From the NCBI GenBank assembly GCA_021813325.1, contig JAKALA010000018.1, forward strand, positions 1-58,337: 58,337 nt of DNA, given 5' to 3'. Each line of letters starts with the position of its first letter. Positions within the stretch are counted from its first letter, which is position 1. A model generated the notes under the pieces. It saw only the letters and a program-made list of their open reading frames with translations. It ran no database searches and was not told the DNA's origin. The DNA is from a bacterium (lineage in GTDB: Bacteria > Verrucomicrobiota > Verrucomicrobiia > Limisphaerales > UBA11358). Of the stretch, positions 24,118-54,206 are shown piece after piece. A program made the translations under genes and the position numbers.

Positions 24118-26074
24118 ATGGCTAACTATCTGGCTGCTGCTTGGCACTCTGGCCGTCAACGCGGCTTTGCCAGCGCCATGGCAATATCAACAGACATTCG
24201 ATGTCGCCGCGCCCGGGCTGATGAAAATCAGTCTGCCGCTGGACACCCTCGACTCAGCCCGGCCGGCGCTCGAAGACCTGCGGCTGTGCGATGATGCTGG
24301 AAATGAACTGCCGTTTCTCATCGAACGGCCCGCGCCGGTGGCAAAGGCGATTCAACCCGCAAAATCATTTCACGTTTCGCTTGAGCCAAGTGCCACGGTC
24401 ATCACCTTGGAAACGGGTTTGGTCCAACCACTCGATGCAGTGACCCTGGAATCGCCGGCGCAAAATTTCATCAAGGCGGTGCGCGTGGATGTTTCGAATG
24501 ACGGCCAAACCTGGCGAAATGTTGTCCAAGGTCAGCCGATCTTTCGTCAGCCTTACGGAGCCGGAAATTTGAAGGTTGGCTTTCCGCCAACTTCGGCGCA
24601 TTGGCTGCGCCTCACTGTGGATGACCGCCGTTCTCAGCCTGTTCCGTTTATCAGTGCCCGCGTTTTTGCGGCCACGGCGGAAGCTGCGGTTTCGGAGACG
24701 CAAAGCGCCGTCATTACCGAGCGAATTGAAAATCCCGGCGAAACCCGGCTGACGCTCAATCTTGGCGCGGCGAATTTGGACGTGGCCTCGGTCCAGATCG
24801 AAACGTCTGCGCCACTGTTTACGCGCCAGGTGACGCTGGCGGTGCCGCAAGTCACCGAGGCCGGCGTCGTTGAGCAGATGATCGGGCAGGGGACGATTTA
24901 CTGTGTCGCGGTGGATGACCAGCCGTCCCGCGCCAACCTGGTTATTCCATTAGATCAACGCGTCAGTTCGCGTGAACTCATTTTGCTGATCCATAACGAA
25001 GACAGTCCGCCGCTCCCGATTTCCGGCGTGCGTTGCGAACGACGGCCCGTTTATCTCGCTTTCATGGCGCCGAACGCAGGCCCATATCACCTGCTCACCG
25101 GCAATAAATTGTGCGCCTCCCCGCATTACGATTTGGCCACGCTTGCGGGCAAATTGAAAATTGCCGAGGTCACTGCGTTGAAAATTTCACCCGTGTCGGA
25201 TAACCCTGATTATCACGCTCCAGAAGCGCTGGCGGGTCTCGACCTCGCGGGCGCGCCGCTGGATGTTGCCGGCTGGAAATATCGCAAACCAATCCAGACC
25301 CAACGGGCCGGAGTCCAGCAAGTGGAACTCGATCTGGAGGTGTTGTCCCATGCGAACGGCAGTTTCAGCGATCTGCGCGTCATGCACGGCAGCAACCAGG
25401 TGCCGTTTCTGGTTCAACGCACGTCCATCAGGCGTTCCCTGGAGCCGGTGGTGACTTTGACCAACGACGTCAAAAATCCAAAAATCTCCCGCTGGCTGAT
25501 CAAATTACCCCGCGCCCATTTGCCGATAACCCGGCTGACGTGTATCTCAACCACGCCGCTGTTTCAACGCAACGTCACGCTCTCGGAGCAATACACGGAC
25601 GAGCGCGGTTACACGTTTTTTCGTCAGCTTGGCAACGCTACTTGGATAGAAACCATGGATCACAAAAGCCGCGAATTTTCGCTGGTTCTCAACAGTGTGG
25701 TGGACAGTGACACGCTGGTTCTGGAAACCCAGAACGGCGATAATCCAGCCATCGGCTTGGAAAAGTTTGCCGCGTATTATCCCGCCACCCGACTGCTGTT
25801 CAAATCGCCTGCCGACGATGGATTGTTGCTTTACTACGGAAATCCGCAGTCCGCTTCTCCGAGCTATGACTTAAATCTGGTTGCGGGCGAATTGCTTTCA
25901 GCTGACAAGGCAACTGCGACGTTGGGTGCCGAGGTGCTGCTCAAGAAATCGTCCTGGGCAGAACGGCAATCGCCCGGCTCGGGCGGCGCGTTGTTCTGGG
26001 GAATTCTTGCCGTCGTGGTTATCGGTTTGCTCGCCGTTATTTCGCGGTTGTTGCCCAAATCACCTCCAAACTGA
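24089..26074 (+). CDS. DUF3999 family exported protein
   Basis: This 661-residue protein has a signal peptide ('WLTIWLLLGTLAVNA'), then 'LPAPWQYQQTFDVAAPGLMKISLPLDTLDSARPALEDLRLCDDAGNELPFLIE', the opening typical of DUF3999. Two similar beta-rich halves follow; the second starts near residue 396 with 'WKYRKPIQTQRAGVQQVELDLEVLSHANGSFSDLRVMHGSNQVPFLV'. A C-terminal membrane helix ('ALFWGILAVVVIGLLAVISRLL') ends the protein. It is probably anchored at the membrane with the bulk outside the cytoplasm. ATG at 24089 gives the signal peptide. Its end is 7 bases from the convergent threonine aldolase stop. Duplication of the first domain within the protein is an inference. Confidence 0.88.
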   Translation: MKILRNLPAKWLTIWLLLGTLAVNAALPAPWQYQQTFDVAAPGLMKISLPLDTLDSARPALEDLRLCDDAGNELPFLIERPAPVAKAIQPAKSFHVSLEPSATVITLETGLVQPLDAVTLESPAQNFIKAVRVDVSNDGQTWRNVVQGQPIFRQPYGAGNLKVGFPPTSAHWLRLTVDDRRSQPVPFISARVFAATAEAAVSETQSAVITERIENPGETRLTLNLGAANLDVASVQIETSAPLFTRQVTLAVPQVTEAGVVEQMIGQGTIYCVAVDDQPSRANLVIPLDQRVSSRELILLIHNEDSPPLPISGVRCERRPVYLAFMAPNAGPYHLLTGNKLCASPHYDLATLAGKLKIAEVTALKISPVSDNPDYHAPEALAGLDLAGAPLDVAGWKYRKPIQTQRAGVQQVELDLEVLSHANGSFSDLRVMHGSNQVPFLVQRTSIRRSLEPVVTLTNDVKNPKISRWLIKLPRAHLPITRLTCISTTPLFQRNVTLSEQYTDERGYTFFRQLGNATWIETMDHKSREFSLVLNSVVDSDTLVLETQNGDNPAIGLEKFAAYYPATRLLFKSPADDGLLLYYGNPQSASPSYDLNLVAGELLSADKATATLGAEVLLKKSSWAERQSPGSGGALFWGILAVVVIGLLAVISRLLPKSPPN

Positions 26075-43564: not shown

Positions 43565-46500
43565 GTGCAAGCGCGATTTCTTCTCGGCCCGGCCGGCAGC
43601 GGAAAAACCTTCCGGTGCCTGGCGGAAATTCGTGCCGCCTTGCAGGCGGAGCCGGACGGTCCGCCGCTGGTCTTGCTCGCGCCAAAGCAGGCTACGTTTC
43701 AGCTCGAACGCCAGTTGTTGGCGACGGGTGAGATTGCCGGGTTCACCCGGCTGCACATTTTCTCCTTCGACAAGCTTGCCCGCCATGTTTTTGAACAACT
43801 TAATCAGGCGCCGCCGAAAACGCTTTCCGGCGAAGGCCGGGTCATGGTGCTGCGCGCATTGTTGCTGCGCCATGAAGCGGACTTGAAATTATTCGGGCGC
43901 AGCGCCCGTCGTCCCGGTTTTGCAGCGGAACTCGCCAAATTGCTTTCTGAATTGCAGCAGCAGCAGGTGACTTCGGCAAAACTCCAGCGACTCGGCAGCT
44001 CCGGCAAATTGCCGGACGAATTGCGGAAAAAACTGACTGATCTCGCGCTGTTGAACGCGCTTTACACTTCCTGGCTGGAAAAGCACGGGCTGAACGACGC
44101 GGATTGCCTGCTTGATTCCGCCACGGAAGCGCTCCGGCGCTCCGGCGTTCCGGCGGCGTTTCGCATTCAGCATCTTTGGATGGACGGTTTTGCGGAGATG
44201 ACCCCGCAGGAGCTGGATTTTTTGGCGTCAATTCTTGGCTTTTGCTCTCAGGCCACGCTGGCGTTTTGCCTGGATGGCGATCCGGAGAAATCCTTGCCAG
44301 CGCTTTCGGTTTGGTCGGCCATCAGCAAAACCTTTCAGCAGTGCCGGGCCAGAGTCGGCCAGTTGCCGGACGTGAATTTAAATGTTGAAACATTGTCGCG
44401 CCAGGCGCGGGCAAATCGGTTTTCTGGCCGTGCAGGCTTGCGGCATTTGGAAAAAGCCTGGGTCAACGGCGCCGATAAAGTGGCGTTGCGGGCGGATGCC
44501 GCAGGAGACGCGGTGCGGGTGGTTTCCTGCGCCGATTCTGAAGCCGAAGCCGTTCTTGCCGCCCGCGAAATTTTGAAGTTTGTCCGCGCCGGGGCCGGCG
44601 AAAATCGTTTCCGTGATTGTGCGGTGCTGACCCGCACAATCGATTCGCATCACAAAGTCTTGGCCCGGGTCTTCCGGCGTTACGAAATTCCGTTTTTTCT
44701 CGATCGGCGCGAAAGCGCGGCGCATCACCCTTTGGCGGAACTGACCCGCAATGCCTTGCGCACGGTGGCATTTGACTGGCGGCATGACGACTGGTTCGCC
44801 GCCTTGAAATGCGGGTTTTCACCGGCCTCGGAAATCGAAATTGACCGGCTGGAAAATACGGCTTTGGAGTTTGGCTGGCGTGGTGAAAAATGGCGCGAGT
44901 CCATGGAGCCGGAAGAATTCGCACGAATCGTTGAGAAAATTCTTCCGCCGTTTCAGAGGCTGTTTGAACAACTCGCCAAGCTTAATTTTAAGCCGGATGG
45001 AGCCATGCTGGCGCGTTTTATCCGGGGGCTTTGGAACGGTCTGAACGTCGAAGCAAAATTGGAAGAGTGGGGGATTGGCGGGGAAGAACTGGCTGCAAAT
45101 GACCGGCAATCCGCCATGCATGCGACGGTTTGGGAGCAGATGAACAACTGGGTCGATGATCTGGCGCTGGCGTTTCCCGGCGACGCTTTGCCGCTGGCGG
45201 ACTGGTTGCCGGTGCTTGACGCGGGATTGGCGGGCTTGACGGTGGGCGTGGTGCCGCCGGCGTTGGATCAGGTGCTGATTGGCGCTGTGGATCGCGCGCG
45301 TAATCCGGACTTAAAATTGGCGCTTTTGCTCGGAGTCAACGAATCAATTTTTCCGGCCACGCCGGGTTCGCCGGTCATCTTGACGCGCGCGGACCGCGAT
45401 GAGTTGGATCTGCAAAAGGTGCCGCTTGGTCCCGGCCTTTTTGATCAAATTTCGCGCGAACGCTATCTCGGTTACATTGCCTGCACGCGGGCCAGTGAGC
45501 GTCTCGTTCTTTCCTTTTCGCAACGCAACCACGATGGCAAAACGCTCAATCCCTCGCCGTTCGTTGCCCAACTTCAGAAAATTTTTCCCGCGTTAAATAT
45601 TGAGGAGTGTGCTGGCGACGAGGCTTCGCCGAATGCCTGCCACGTCAGCGATTTGGTGCCGCTCATTTTGGCGTCGCGAGCTGGTGACGATGGAGAACGT
45701 GATAAACCGCACGTCGGATTTCCAAGTGATTTTACCACGGCTGAACCCGGGCGTTCGTTGTGGGAACAGCCGGCGCTCAAATCATTGTCGGACCGGCTGG
45801 CGGCGTTGCATGAGCCTGATGGAAAGGAAGCTTTGTCACGCATGATGGCCGGCGCGCTCTATGGACCGGTGCTGCGTTCATCGGTCAGTCGTCTGGAAGA
45901 ATTTGCCCAATGCCCCTTCAAGTTTTTTATGCGCGTGGGATTGCGGGCAGGCGAACGAAAAGTGTTTGAGTTGGACGCCCGCGAGCGCGGAAATTTCCAA
46001 CACAACGTCTTGAAAACCTTTCATGAACAGTTGCAATCCGGGCGCCGGCGCTGGCGCGACTTGACGCCTGCCGAAGCGCGCGAACGGATCAAATCCATTG
46101 GCGCCGCGCAATTGGAGAGTTTTCGGAACGGGCTGTTTCGCGACTCGGCGGAATCACTGTTTGCCGCCCGCTCCATGGTTCTCGCCTTGCAGGATTTTAT
46201 TGAGGTGATCGTCACGTGGATGCGCGGCCAATATGAATTTGATCCAGTGCGCGTGGAACTGGGTTTTGGCGGCAACAATGACTTGGCGCCTGCCTGGAAA
46301 ATCGACCTGGGTCAGGGTTTGACGCTGGCGTTGCAGGGAAGGATTGACCGGGTTGATCTCTGGCGCAAACCGGGCGACGCTGCGGCTCTGGCGGTGGTCA
46401 TCGATTACAAATCCGGCGGCAAAAAACTGGATTCTTTGCTGGTGGAAAACGGCGTGCAGTTGCAGTTGCTGGCGTATCTGGGGGCGTTGCGGCATTGGCC

Positions 46501-46984
46501 CGATGCCGCGACTGCTTTTGGGGTGAAGAGCATCGTGCCCGCCGGCGCTTTTTATGTGAGTCTGTTGGGAAAATATGAAGCGGCGGATTCACGGGATGAG
46601 ATGTTGGACGATGCCAATGCAAAGTGTCTGGCTTATCGTCATAATGGGCGGTTTGATGCCACTCATCTGCGGTTACTCGACCGGCGGACGGATGTTGCGA
46701 AAGGCGACCAGTTCAATTTCCGTTTGAACAAGGACGGCGGATTGCCGTCCAATTCCACGGAAGCGTTGCCGCGCGAGAAGTTCATGGCGCTGTTGGACGA
46801 TGTGGAGGTCCGGTTGAAAGAATTGGGGACCAATATCTTTTCCGGCGCAGCCGCAGTGGATCCGTATCGTCAGGGCAAAACAACGCCGTGTGATTTTTGT
46901 GATTATCGCGCCGTCTGCCGGATTGATGTGTGGACCCATGAATGGCGCGGGCTGTGCGCCGCGTCCAAGGAGACCAAATCATGA
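43565..46984 (+). CDS. addB: AddB/RexB-like helicase-nuclease subunit (PD-(D/E)XK nuclease)
   Basis: AddAB processes double-strand breaks for recombination. The 1139-residue protein has Walker A 'GPAGSGKT' (8-15) and a degenerate UvrD-like body. Its C-terminal RecB-type nuclease has 'GRIDRVDLW' and '[10 protein letters not shown]' (Asp947, Lys949). The AddB iron-sulphur cluster Cys set is complete: C783 ('[10 protein letters not shown]') and C1109-x2-C1112-x5-C1118. GTG at 43565 is chosen because Walker A follows at once and no ATG is nearby. The AddA partner is not in the window. The next gene, msrB, overlaps by ATGA. Confidence 0.9.
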
Positions 46985-47526
46985 AACGAATCGTGATGTT
47001 GCTGGCGATGCTGGCCTGGCCGTTGGTGAACGGCTGCGGGGCCGGCCCAACCCCAACCCCGGCGGCCATGAACAAGCCCACCAACACCACCATGAAATTC
47101 CCGTTCGAGCGAACCGAAGCGGAATGGCGCAAAATCCTGACGCCGGAGCAATATCACGTCCTGCGCGAAGCGGGCACGGAGCGGGCTTTCAGCGGGAAAT
47201 ACTGGAACACCAAGGAGCCTGGGGTTTACCGTTGCGTGGCGTGCGGCGCGGTTTTGTTCACGGCCAAAGACAAGTTTGATTCCGGCTGCGGCTGGCCCAG
47301 CTTTTCGGATCTGGCCGCCAAAGGCACGGTGATCGAACGCGAGGACGACAGTCTGGGCATGCATCGGACGGAGGTGCTTTGTGCCAATTGCGGCAGCCAC
47401 CTCGGGCATGTTTTTAACGACGGTCCGGCGCCAACCGGACTGCGTTATTGCATCAATTCTGCGGCGATTGATTTGGTTCCAACGAATTCCACTGCCAACG
47501 GCGTGGAGCCAAATCAGCGAAAATAG
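46981..47526 (+). CDS. msrB: Lipoprotein methionine-R-sulfoxide reductase
   Basis: MsrB repairs oxidised methionine. The 181-residue protein carries a lipoprotein signal ('LVNGC', Cys19), so it acts in the periplasm on the membrane surface. The MsrB domain starts at about residue 39 with '[37 protein letters not shown]'. It has zinc ligands C85, C88, C134 and C137 and the catalytic Cys157 in 'RYCINSAA'. The start at 46981 lies in the overlap ATGA with the addB stop and gives the signal peptide. Pairing an envelope repair enzyme with a DNA-repair nuclease is unexpected; a shared transcript may be incidental. Confidence 0.95.
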
Positions 47527-47692
47527 GAGAATTTGACTTCGCACGGCGGCGAAAACGGGTGGCAGATTTTTTTTAAACCGGCAGAGCAAAAGGCGAAAAC
47601 CGGACTGGGTTTTCTGGCCGCAGCGTGTGAATGCGCGGGATAAGCAAGTCTTGTCACTTTGGCGGGGCCGCTTGAAAAGACACTAATTCCGA

Positions 47693-48132
47693 TGTCTGGG
47701 GCGAATGTCGAGACGCCCGACAGAAAAACATGCCAAGGCGAAGGTGCGGTGCGGGGGGTGTGGATCCCCGTTCCACATCGGGAAGAATATGTTCCGGCAT
47801 CGGAAAGCGAGGCACCGGGGACTGGCCAAGAAACGGCCATCAACTCTACATGCTTCTTTGCCCTGGCCAACGTGGTGATCGGCACCCGCGCGCGGGCCAC
47901 GGTGTGAAAAGAGCCAAACCATCCGCTTGAAGCGGTGGAAGCGACGAAGCAACGCGGATCGAATCCGCTTGGGATTCCCCCGTGACCGCCAAGCCGGGGG
48001 CAGCCAAGGTGAATCACCGCTGCGGACGGTTGGTCTTTTCGTCAGTGCCAACGCCAATCTGAAATCCAAGCTTTATGTAACGTCTCCTTAAGTGCTTCAG
48101 GGTCAGTTTGCCACCCCAAAGAGGAGGTGGCA
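47693..48132. ncRNA. Candidate structured RNA or repeat element (strand undetermined)
   Basis: In a 679-base gap between convergent genes, a dense series of hairpins appears: 47693-47703 with 47714-47722 (9 bp, 2-base bulge), 47759-47764 with 47772-47777, 47823-47827 with 47835-47839, 47871-47875 with 47897-47901 enclosing a self-complementary CCCGCGCGCGGG, 47954-47959 with 47963-47968, 47977-47982 with 47995-48000, 48029-48033 with 48048-48052, and 48109-48115 with 48126-48132. GATT 47973-47976 can also pair with AATC 48012-48015 around the sixth. No frame has protein-family features. It could be a non-coding RNA or a multicopy genomic repeat. An eight-T run at 47567-47574 follows the msrB stop. 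Confidence 0.4.
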
Positions 48133-48205
48133 GCGCAGCCATTCATCGGATCAGCCCAAGTGGAACTGAGCTTTGCCGGCGGTTGTTGTGGGTTTTGAGC
48201 CGCGC

Positions 48206-51200
48206 TCAATAAACCACGATGCGGTAGAACATCTGTTTTGCATCCGCTATCAGACGGTCGTCAGTGACCGTGACGTCGCTGCCGGTTCCGGCAATGCCGT
48301 CCGCGAGCGTATCCCACGTCACCAGGTCGCTGGAGACTTCCACCCGATAGGTGCGGTTTATGGCGGTGCTGAAGGTGATGTCGTATTGGTTATACGGCCC
48401 GGAGGGTTGAACGCTGCTGATGGCGAACACCGACTTGGTGTTGATTGGGTTCAAGCCGGCGAGATAATCCTGCCAGACCATCAGCCCGTTGCCGTTATAA
48501 TCATTGGTTTCATTGGCCGCCCAATTATTGGCGTTGGTAAATCCGTAGCCAATCAACCACGGAACGGGCGTGCCGTGGGGCAGGGCGGGATAGACCGTGA
48601 CGAATTGGTTGGTGTTTTCAAAGTTGAAATTTTGATTGCCGGTGTTGGTGTAAATCGTGTTGTCAATGGTCAAGAAGCTGAAGGCGTTGCTGGCATTCAG
48701 CACATCGTGGAAGTTGAAGTTGAGCAACGGACCAAAACTGGCGAATGGAATGCTGGTGCTCAGAACCTGCTGGTCTGGGCTACTCAACGTGGCCCAATAT
48801 CCGCCCGCTCCGTCGTTGGTTTGGGAGAGACTCCAATGGTAGAGCAGGTCGCCGCTGTTGGTGGAGGCCAAGCTGACGTCACACGGCCAATTCACACGGT
48901 AATGCAGGCGAATTTGCCGGATGTAACGCGGCACATAGGTGGCGCGCAGCGTAACGCCGGAAGGTTTCACATCCGCATTGGCCACCAGGCGGAGCGAGCC
49001 GACTTTAACATCGCCCGCATAATTCGAAGGTTTATACCAGTTGATGATGTAATTGGTGGTGTAAATGGTAATATTCGTCATTACCGTCGAGCCGTCGGAG
49101 TTGGTCATTGGAATATTGTTTGTGTCCAAGACCGGAACGTTGGTGGTGCTGGTGATGATCGGATTGGTGGGCGAATCAGCCGTGATTTCCTGATAGGTAA
49201 TCTGGAATGAAGGCATGAAACTGGTCGATGAACGTTGCAGCGTTGCCCAACGGAGAATGTATTGCCCGCTCAAATCTTTGGCGATTTGCGCAAAATCGGC
49301 GGATAGGGCAATTAAGTTGGTTGCTTCATAAAAACGGCCTTCGGTGCTGGAAGTGATATTCTGAAGGGTGTTAGTGTCAATAATGTCACCAAACCCAACG
49401 CAGTAGATTTGGACTTTTGCCGCCGTGGCAGCGCTGATGACATCGTCCACAGTATTGGTGCTGGAGGTGTCGTAACCGTCAGAACAGAAGACAACCACAT
49501 GTTGTTCGTCAGCGTTGGTGGAACTTAATCCTTTGATGGCCGCCATAAGTGCATCCCAGCAGCGCGATCCAGCGGGGAAATTCTGAACGTAATTGATCCA
49601 GATGCCGCCAATATCATTATTCAGAAGGGTTTTATCTGTGGTCAGCGATTGCACCAACTGTGGATCAAGATCATCCCGATGAAACTCATAGATGCCAATC
49701 TGGGCGTCATCCGGCTGCATGTTCACAAAATTTTGAGCGGCGCTGACTTCGGTTTCCACGGCGTCGGAAATGCCATTATGGTTGGTATCCCCATTGGCCA
49801 GCGAGGCGATACTTTCGCTGAAGTCGAGCACTTCGTAGGCTTTGAGCACTTTGGCACTGAGACCGGAAATCCGAATCGAAGTCTCATTGGTGCTGATCAC
49901 CTGGCCGTTTTCCATGGCGGTCACAGCCAGATTGCTGGGGTTGGCAACGACGGCGTTCCCGGTGGCAGCATCGGAGTTGTCGCGCAGTGAAAATTGAAAT
50001 TCCAGCAGATAGGGTGACAAATAATTCGTCGTAACATTTTGGATGAACAGACCGGAAAGTGGTGCGTTGCCAACGGTCAATTGCAGGTTGGCGGTGGCCG
50101 CTCCCCACGCGTTGGTCGCAAAAATCGGGATTGAATAAGTTCCCGCGTAAAGTGGATAGCCCGAAATCACACCGTTGGTGGTATCGATGTTCAAACCCAC
50201 CGGAAGATCGCCGGCCCCGTAGCTGGCGGGGGATTCAGTGGCCTTGATTTGATAATTGAAAAGGGTTTGCTCGGTGCCGGACGCCATGGTTGCACTGGTA
50301 ATGACCGGGACCGAGGATGAAATATTCAACGTATAATTGGTCTGCGCTGGACCGCAGCTATTCGCCGCCTCCAGCGTCAGTTGGTAAGTGCCGGAAACCA
50401 AGGGCGCGCCGCTGATGAGGCCATTGGTGGTGTTGATGGCCAGTCCAGGTGGCAGATTATAGGCATTGAAAGTTGTGGGGTTGTTTTTTGCGATAATTGT
50501 GTAGCTGAAGGCGACGCCTTGTTTGCCGCTGCCCGAGATCGCGCTGTAAATCACCGGCAAATCGCACTCCGGCGGACGCCAGAAGGGCGGCAATTGCGTG
50601 CCGCTGCTGGTCACGGATCCCAGTGCGTTGGAGACGATCACGGAAAAATAGCTGCCATTCGGAATCGGGAAATTATTCAAGACGAGCAGCGCATTGGTGG
50701 CGCCGTCAATGTTCGTTCCGTCCTGAAGCCATTGATAACTAAGCGGAGTCTGGCCGCTGGCGGTGACCTGAAAATAAGCCGTGCCCGAATTGGCATTGTA
50801 TTCGCCAACGGGTTGGCTGGTGATGACGGGCTGGCCGTCGCCCATGATCGCCAGGTTGTTGAAACTTCCGGCGGCAATTCCCACCACGTTGGTCAAGTCG
50901 GCCGGAAGGTTTGTTTGAAAATAGGTGTTGTCGCCCCAAACCACCACGGTGCCGTTCTGTTTCAAGGCCATGCTGTGGTAGGCGCCGGCGGCGATGGCCA
51001 CCACATTGGACAGGTTGGCCGGAACCGAGCTTTGCCCCCAGGAATTATCGCCCCAGGCCACCACTTTGCCGTCCCTTTTCAGGGCCAAATTGTGAAACTG
51101 TCCGGCCGCAATGGCCACCACATTGGACAAACTGGCGGGAACATTCGTTTGTCCCCAGGTGTTATTGCCCCAGGCGATCACGTTGCCCTCGCCGTTGAGG

Positions 51201-52004: not shown

Positions 52005-54206
52005 ATGCCCATGATTCTGACAGCCGACGAACTTCGGAGTTTGGTTGAGGTCAAACATCAGTCGCCGCACTCGCTGCTGGGCATGCACCCGTTGGGAGAT
52101 CAAACGGGGCTTGTTGTTCGTGCCCTGCTGCCGGATGCCAGACAGGTCGAGGTCTGTCCGGTTCATGAAGCGGACAAGCCGGCTTTTGAGTTGAAACGAA
52201 TTTCCAACACCGATGTTTTCGAGGGGGTGACCAAGGCGGCAACTTCTGTCTATGCCTACGATCTGGTCATTACGAATCATCAAGGTCAGACTTGGCGCAC
52301 GCGCGATGCTTTTTCCTTTTTGCCCACGCTTGGCGAGGCCGATTTGTATTTGTTGGGAAAGGGCGACGAACGCAAAATTTACGAGAAACTGGGCGCGCAG
52401 CTCCGCACCATTGACGGAGTGAACGGCACCAGCTTTGCCGTTTGGGCGCCCAATGCCCAGCGCGTCAGTGTCGTGGGGGATTTTAACAGTTGGGATGGCC
52501 GGGTTCATCCGATGCGCTTGTTGGGCACGTCCGGCGTCTGGGAAATTTTCATTCCCGGCGCGGGGCCGGGCAACCATTACAAATTTGAAATTCGCGACGC
52601 CCACGGTCATATCAAATTGAACACCGATCCGTGCGGTTTCTTCTTTGAAGTGGCGCCCAAGCAGGCGGCCATTGTCTGGAACACGCAAAAGTTCCAATGG
52701 ACGGATGCCGCCTGGCTGCAAAAACGCCGCGAACGGGATTCCTTGCGATCGCCCATGAGCATTTACGAGGTGCACGTGGGTTCCTGGCAGAAAAAGGCGG
52801 CGGCAGAATCGTGGAGCTACCGTGAGCTGGCCAAGCCGCTGGTCGAATACGTCACACGCCTGGGCTTCACGCACGTGGAGTTTTTACCCGTGGCGGAACA
52901 CGCCTTTTATCCGTCGTGGGGTTATCAAGTCACCGGCTTTTACGCGCCCACCAGCCGCTTCGGGACGCCGGATGATTTTCAATTTCTCGTCAATGCCCTC
53001 CACGAAGCCGGCATTGGCGTCATTGTGGACTGGGTGCCGGCGCATTTTCCCCGCGACACTTGGGCCTTGGCCCGGTTTGATGGCACGGCGCTCTACGAAC
53101 ACGAAGATCCGCGCAAAGGCGCTCATCAGGATTGGGGCACGCTGATTTTCAATTTTAGCCGACACGAGGTTTCCAATTTCCTCGTCGCCAATGCCCTTTA
53201 CTGGTGTGATCGCTATCACATCGATGGACTGCGCGTGGATGCCGTTGCCTCCATGCTCTACTTGGATTACTCGCGGAAGCAAGGGGAATGGATTCCCAAT
53301 CAATACGGCGGACGCGAAAACCTCGAAGCCATCGAATTTCTAAAAAAATTCAATCACATCACCCAGACTGAATATCCGGGAGTGGTGACCATTGCCGAAG
53401 AATCGACCGCCTGGCCGCAGGTGACCCGCCCGCCATACATCGGCGGATTGGGCTTCTCCTTTAAATGGAACATGGGTTGGATGCACGACACGCTGGGCTA
53501 TTTCAAGCACGAGCCGATCCATCGCAAATTTCATCAAAACGATCTCACCTTTGCGATGCTTTACCATTATCACGAGAACTTTGTGCTGCCGCTTTCGCAC
53601 GATGAAGTGGTTCACGGCAAATGCTCATTGCTTGGGCGGATGCCGGGAGATGAATGGCAGAAATTCGCCAATTTGCGCGTGTTGATCGGTTATCAATGGC
53701 TGTTCCCAGGCAAAAAATTAATGTTCATGGGCGGGGAACTGGGCCAGCGCGCGGAATGGAATGAAAATTCCCAGCTCGACTGGTGGCTGCTGGATGCCGG
53801 CCCGTTCCATCGCGGCATGCAACGATTTGTGGCGGACTTGAACCAGCTTTACACCGCCTCACCCGGCCTCTGGCAATCGGATTACGATCCCGCGGGTTTC
53901 ACCTGGCTGGACTGTTCCGACCACGACCAAAGCGTCCTGTCTTTCCTTCGGCAGACGTCCGATGGGAAAAATCAAACCGTGGTGATTTTGAACCTGACGC
54001 CGGTGCCGCGTCCCAATTATCGCATGGGCGTTCCCAAAACCGGCTTTTGGAAAGAAGTGCTGAACAGCGACGCTTCCGTTTATGCCGGCAGCAATTCCGG
54101 AAACAGCGGCGGCGTGATGGCGGAAAACCATCCGTCACACAACCAGCCCGCCTCGGCGGCCTTCTTTCTTCCGCCCTTAAGCGTGTCAGTTTTTCAAGCG
54201 GCATGA
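52005..54206 (+). CDS. glgB: 1,4-alpha-glucan branching enzyme
   Basis: GlgB introduces alpha-1,6 branches into glycogen (GH13). The 733-residue protein has an N1 domain ('LVEVKHQSPHSLLGMHPLGDQTGLVVRALLPDA'), a CBM48 domain ('GTSFAVWAPNAQRVSVVGDFNSWDGRVHPM') and the GH13 barrel. The catalytic residues are D412 ('DGLRVDAVASML'), E465 ('IAEEST') and D533 ('LSHDEVVHGK'), each exactly 7 residues after the E. coli positions 405/458/526. An all-beta C-terminal domain follows. The length is that of full-size type 1 GlgB. ATG at 52005 or 52011 are both possible. It overlaps xthA by ATGA. Confidence 0.97.
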   Translation: MPMILTADELRSLVEVKHQSPHSLLGMHPLGDQTGLVVRALLPDARQVEVCPVHEADKPAFELKRISNTDVFEGVTKAATSVYAYDLVITNHQGQTWRTRDAFSFLPTLGEADLYLLGKGDERKIYEKLGAQLRTIDGVNGTSFAVWAPNAQRVSVVGDFNSWDGRVHPMRLLGTSGVWEIFIPGAGPGNHYKFEIRDAHGHIKLNTDPCGFFFEVAPKQAAIVWNTQKFQWTDAAWLQKRRERDSLRSPMSIYEVHVGSWQKKAAAESWSYRELAKPLVEYVTRLGFTHVEFLPVAEHAFYPSWGYQVTGFYAPTSRFGTPDDFQFLVNALHEAGIGVIVDWVPAHFPRDTWALARFDGTALYEHEDPRKGAHQDWGTLIFNFSRHEVSNFLVANALYWCDRYHIDGLRVDAVASMLYLDYSRKQGEWIPNQYGGRENLEAIEFLKKFNHITQTEYPGVVTIAEESTAWPQVTRPPYIGGLGFSFKWNMGWMHDTLGYFKHEPIHRKFHQNDLTFAMLYHYHENFVLPLSHDEVVHGKCSLLGRMPGDEWQKFANLRVLIGYQWLFPGKKLMFMGGELGQRAEWNENSQLDWWLLDAGPFHRGMQRFVADLNQLYTASPGLWQSDYDPAGFTWLDCSDHDQSVLSFLRQTSDGKNQTVVILNLTPVPRPNYRMGVPKTGFWKEVLNSDASVYAGSNSGNSGGVMAENHPSHNQPASAAFFLPPLSVSVFQAA

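Follow-up and report, generated by a model that had tools for sequence, protein, structure and literature searches.

Positions 47728-48087 (plus strand) of the window, the whole 58,337-nucleotide stretch of bacterial DNA that was analysed, very probably hold a degraded 3' fragment of an ordinary IS5-family insertion sequence (IS), a dead remnant truncated at its 5' end; we put the probability of this reading at about 94%. The fragment corresponds to approximately positions 870-1214 of a 1214-position element. A profile of 1214 positions, made from eight IS copies of which some were partial, was searched against 46901-48400 with nhmmer and matched 47728-48088 (E 2.5e-58) over profile positions 870-1214, reaching the last position. 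By blastn over approximately 357 nt, the fragment is 81% identical to genome G001 and 74% identical to genome G076.

The left part of the fragment is the C-terminus of a transposase pseudogene at 47723-47907 on the plus strand, lying in three different frames. In order these read AKVRC..FHIGKNMFRHRKARHRGLAKK, NGHQLYML and FALANVVIGTRARATV followed by a stop, and at each of the two switches between them (frames 47705, 47730 and 47659) one base is present in excess of the profile and of intact copies. Searching by tblastn with an intact transposase recovers 47723-47833 at 61% identity (E 6.4e-6). The preliminary description had seen a gene-free stretch at 47580-48132 in which no frame has protein-family features, which is misleading even though, taken singly, three of the four frames that we scanned (two minus, two plus) have no Pfam match at E 0.001. 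The plus-strand frame 47705-47875 gives weak Pfam matches below the cut-off, the best being zf-Mss51 (E 0.012), and by itself has neither an NCBIfam match nor a match to a transposase family. What that description missed is the broken transposase C-terminus, which shows up only when relatives are compared.

Following the pseudogene is a non-coding 3' tail of approximately 160 nt (47908-48070, plus strand), delimited by alignment to L002, L007, L008, L026, L050 and L045; the distance from the transposase stop to the right IS end is approximately 180 nt. The right terminal repeat, CTTTATGTAACGTCTCC at 48071-48087 (plus strand), was located using the relatives' pattern CTTTATTCAGCGTCTCC, obtained by motif search in oriented copies, and the 21-base right-end pattern (TTAA included) has three mismatches in the window. 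The flanking tetranucleotide TTAA (48088-48091, not assigned to a strand) is of the YTAR type that the IS duplicates. TTAA was seen on the right side only, with no left target duplicate, and a search of 46901-48600 for the left terminal repeat allowing up to 8 mismatches returned nothing except an 8-mismatch site at 48194, to the right of the element. The fragment does not show the pair of terminal inverted repeats that 15 relatives carry, one at each end, and its IS5-type DDE transposase is present as a broken C-terminal remnant only. Like IS5-family ISs (NF033581, transpos_IS5_4), the fragment has a transposase C-terminus, a right terminal repeat and a YTAR-type tetranucleotide; unlike them, it is without the left end and approximately 70% of the element, and its transposase runs over three frames. 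We file the fragment as a piece of an IS5-family element and not as a complete member, and it is presumably not mobile by itself.

Relatives occur both in the same genome and beyond it. Counting the present one, the genome has five places at the DNA level and nine at the transposase level, the latter comprising one 340-aa open frame (C28) and eight partial matches, some of which are probably pieces of one copy. A DNA search of 97 genomes (own included) gave matches in 11, that in G088 being only weak (25 bases). With L007, a better-kept relative, as the query, matches are scattered patchily over 27 of 320 genomes from the order, the window's own among them, those in G178 and G072 being weak and short. 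The earlier suggestion of a multicopy element therefore held up in kind, as an IS fragment with relatives in its own genome and in these 27 of 320.

Full transposases can be read upstream in, for example, L003, L008, L009 and L011, and those of L003, L008 and L011 match NF033581 (IS5 family), DUF772 and DDE_Tnp_1, with E 4.4e-101 for NF033581 (transpos_IS5_4) against L011. Copies having two ends are 1145-1243 nt long and have left ends of the GGAAACGCTGATTTAA type. Merging orientations reduced the 23 rows for such copies to 15 loci, 13 of which show both flanks (L009 and L068 are without one). The flanking 4-mers are identical in 9 of these 13 (L003, L008, L011, L031, L032, L035, L037, L043 and L065) and conform to YTAR in 8 of the 9, L037 being the exception; they are unequal in L015, L046, L070 and L107. 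According to PMC10359306, the target duplication conserved in IS5 is YTAR. Transposase relatives number at least 552 among at least 596 matched stretches, of which the best 80 were kept. Among these best 80 as listed, the first seven are Verrucomicrobiota or its families or genera; genera mostly of Proteobacteria follow. Judging by these names, the window itself probably comes from Verrucomicrobiota, perhaps from the order Limisphaerales. Of 37 IS tails, 28 measure 172-185 nt of non-coding DNA from stop to right end, though sequence and transposase diverge widely. As a separate observation, interspersed, REP-like hairpin repeats around GACTTTCCAGTC were found at L011:1702-1827 and 2560-2963 (G042:C60). 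This sequence has 35 exact matches in G042, where the reversed control has none, a further 3 in the window's genome and 2 in G035; it is absent from G001, G020 and G009, and from the window even when one mismatch is allowed.

The stretch at 47580-48132 is flanked by convergent genes, as had been described. By Pfam domain scan, its left neighbour is a SelR-domain (MsrB-like) gene on the plus strand ending at 47526, and its right neighbour, on the minus strand (51769-48206), is a long gene with RCC1/VWA domains. The msrB-like gene is adjoined by an AddB-type gene (43565-46984, plus strand) having ADDB_N and PDDEXK_1 domains, and the end of addB aligns together with msrB in L055, L056, L059 and partly L057, all of the same genus. 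An empty site, sought in 11 msrB loci with flanks of approximately 1.5 kb, did not turn up: blastn gave no match beyond 47507, and by tblastx on the same loci only three short or stray stretches extend past 47520. To the left of the IS fragment lie 148 nt (47580-47727, no strand assigned). Searching 47527-47727 against the 97 genomes (own included) found one relative only, in G076 (L024), where 31 bases match in what looks by eye like a coding frame. Together, 47580-47727 and 48088-48132 make up the 193 nt of the 553-nt stretch that are not IS.

The three perfect stems named in the preliminary description are all present. GCGGAT/ATCCGC (47954-47959/47963-47968) and CCCCCG/CGGGGG (47977-47982/47995-48000) lie in the non-coding IS tail, and TGCCACC/GGTGGCA (48109-48115/48126-48132) lies outside the IS; this last hairpin (48109-48132) has no T-run downstream on either strand. 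The accompanying claim that stem density is far above that of neighbouring regions was not borne out by counting. Perfect stems of at least 6 bp with loops of up to 60 in 47580-48132 number 12, while 200 dinucleotide shuffles average 7.7 (sd 2.8). Of these shuffles 22 have 12 or more, as do 19 of the 105 pieces of 553 nt into which the whole window, this stretch included, was cut without overlap. Stems of at least 7 bp number 2, with a shuffled mean of 1.8 and 2 or more in 111 of 200 shuffles. Hairpins are about as frequent here as elsewhere in the window and are not beyond chance. The fold of 47540-48140 shows a mild excess of stability (z -1.73 on the plus and -2.03 on the minus strand, with 0 of 20 shuffles equally stable on either strand). 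The most reasonable view of the hairpins is that they pair by chance within a decaying tail.

ROOL, GOLLD and OLE are long structured bacterial ncRNAs, which the stretch resembles in being long, intergenic and many-stemmed; it differs from them in that specific covariation was not found and in that Rfam, searched over the whole window at gathering score, found only one tRNA, elsewhere, and nothing here. We consider it very improbable that a functional structured RNA, free-standing or residing in the IS tail, folds from 47905-48045. In this copy, where a long imperfect hairpin spans 47906-48040, that part of the tail does fold stably (z -3.31 on the plus and -4.36 on the minus strand, with 1 and 0 of 200 shuffles as stable), but the 141-nt piece was chosen post hoc from the fold. 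For the 184-nt tail as a whole z is -1.12/-1.89, in five related tails it ranges from -1.29 to +0.87, and among unselected window pieces (30 shuffles each) 17 of 826 and 2 of 826 are as low as the plus and minus z of the chosen piece. Stem conservation was tested in a seven-row alignment, A1, for the two named stems that lie within the IS, and conservation with compensatory changes was not found there: 65.4% of cells are paired versus 63.2% when shuffled (79/500), and 2 pairs show two-sided change, a number that 92 of 500 shuffles reach. The fold of the window's copy has 9 pairs with two-sided change across the seven rows, where the shuffle mean is 4.4, 1 of 500 shuffles reaches as many and slid controls give 3-5. 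As a control, all seven rows of A1 were folded on both strands and counted alike. Besides the two folds of the window's copy, those of L002 plus (9 pairs, 4/500), L008 plus (8, 1/500) and L008 minus (8, 3/500) show a similar excess, while the remaining 9 of the 12 other row/strand folds show none; the window's hairpin is thus not singled out by it. For the seven rows together, RNAalifold gave 23 pairs, 3 of them with two-sided change, at -16.21 but with an unfavourable covariation term of +0.78. A weak excess was seen for a seven-row subgroup of tails, at -11.72 versus -6.78 column-shuffled on the plus strand (3/60 as low) and 6/60 on the minus strand. For a broader set, tails were collected by a tblastn search at E 1e-4 whose query was the C-terminal 80 aa of the L011 transposase, keeping matches that extend to query residue 65 or further; L047, which is without a right end, was excluded, and 37 tails plus the window remained. 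The 37 tails have a mean z of -0.79 (plus) and -0.56 (minus) versus -0.32 for window pieces, a slight excess. Removal of five rows whose tails were short or oddly cut (L041, L065, L005, L033 and L018) left 33 of the 38 rows, and removal of columns with more than 60% gaps left 175 of 234; this alignment folded at energy 0 on both strands, and its shuffles also gave 0 or nearly 0, a test without power. Elsewhere in the window, comparable folds were observed at 53299-53439 (z -4.17 minus, -2.63 plus) and 25663-25803 (z -4.31 and -3.86 on the two strands), two stretches that look coding by eye, the frame at 53299 presumably resembling a glycogen-branching-enzyme type. The uncharacterised ncRNA proposed at the outset does have homologous DNA, but its named stems in the IS show no covariation beyond shuffles, the signal of the longer hairpin is non-specific, and the homologous stretch is, in its left part, what remains of a real protein gene, that of the IS5 transposase. 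The structured-RNA reading of the stretch is not supported. We find it similarly doubtful, and to be held only as a very slight possibility, that a fast-evolving hairpin, subterminal in position and used by the element, is present in the non-coding 3' tail of this IS5 clade, with the relic keeping an unusually clear copy; if so, the tail hairpin might, for example, insulate or regulate transposase expression.

It is highly unlikely that the stretch is an IS-derived MITE, mobilised by the transposase that the full-length copy in its own genome supplies. That full-length copy is present, together with further pieces having only the right end (L002, L004 and L005), but the stretch has one terminal repeat only, with no left end found in 46901-48600 apart from the 8-mismatch site at 48194, and the pieces in the genome have differing left limits and 79-80% identity to the fragment, which argues for decay and not for recent spread. 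Two terminal repeats, a short non-coding core and several near-identical copies, as expected of a MITE, were not found here, and none of the genome's DNA-level places is a near-identical two-ended copy with duplications. That the minus strand encodes a protein, at 47514-48017 or 47683-48069, is extremely unlikely: these frames are open for 167 aa and 128 aa, but neither matches Pfam at E 0.001, and transposase coding sequence aligns with the left part of the region in the opposite sense. These antisense frames are presumably open by chance.

The degraded IS5-family fragment probably arose as follows. The DDE transposase of an IS5-family element would have placed the element at a YTAR-type tetranucleotide between the two convergent genes; the left end and the greater part of the transposase gene would then have been lost, and what remained of that gene would have gained frameshifts. 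Neither the left end nor the left target duplicate was found, and that a complete insertion once stood at this spot is an inference; the remnant is presumably without present function. The stretch is an ordinary decayed insertion-sequence fragment, and it carries two cautions: a frameshifted transposase remnant seems gene-free when its frames are read singly, and decaying DNA at 58% G+C, the value for 47580-48132, gives many short perfect stems. Comparison with relatives at the DNA level resolves such cases quickly.
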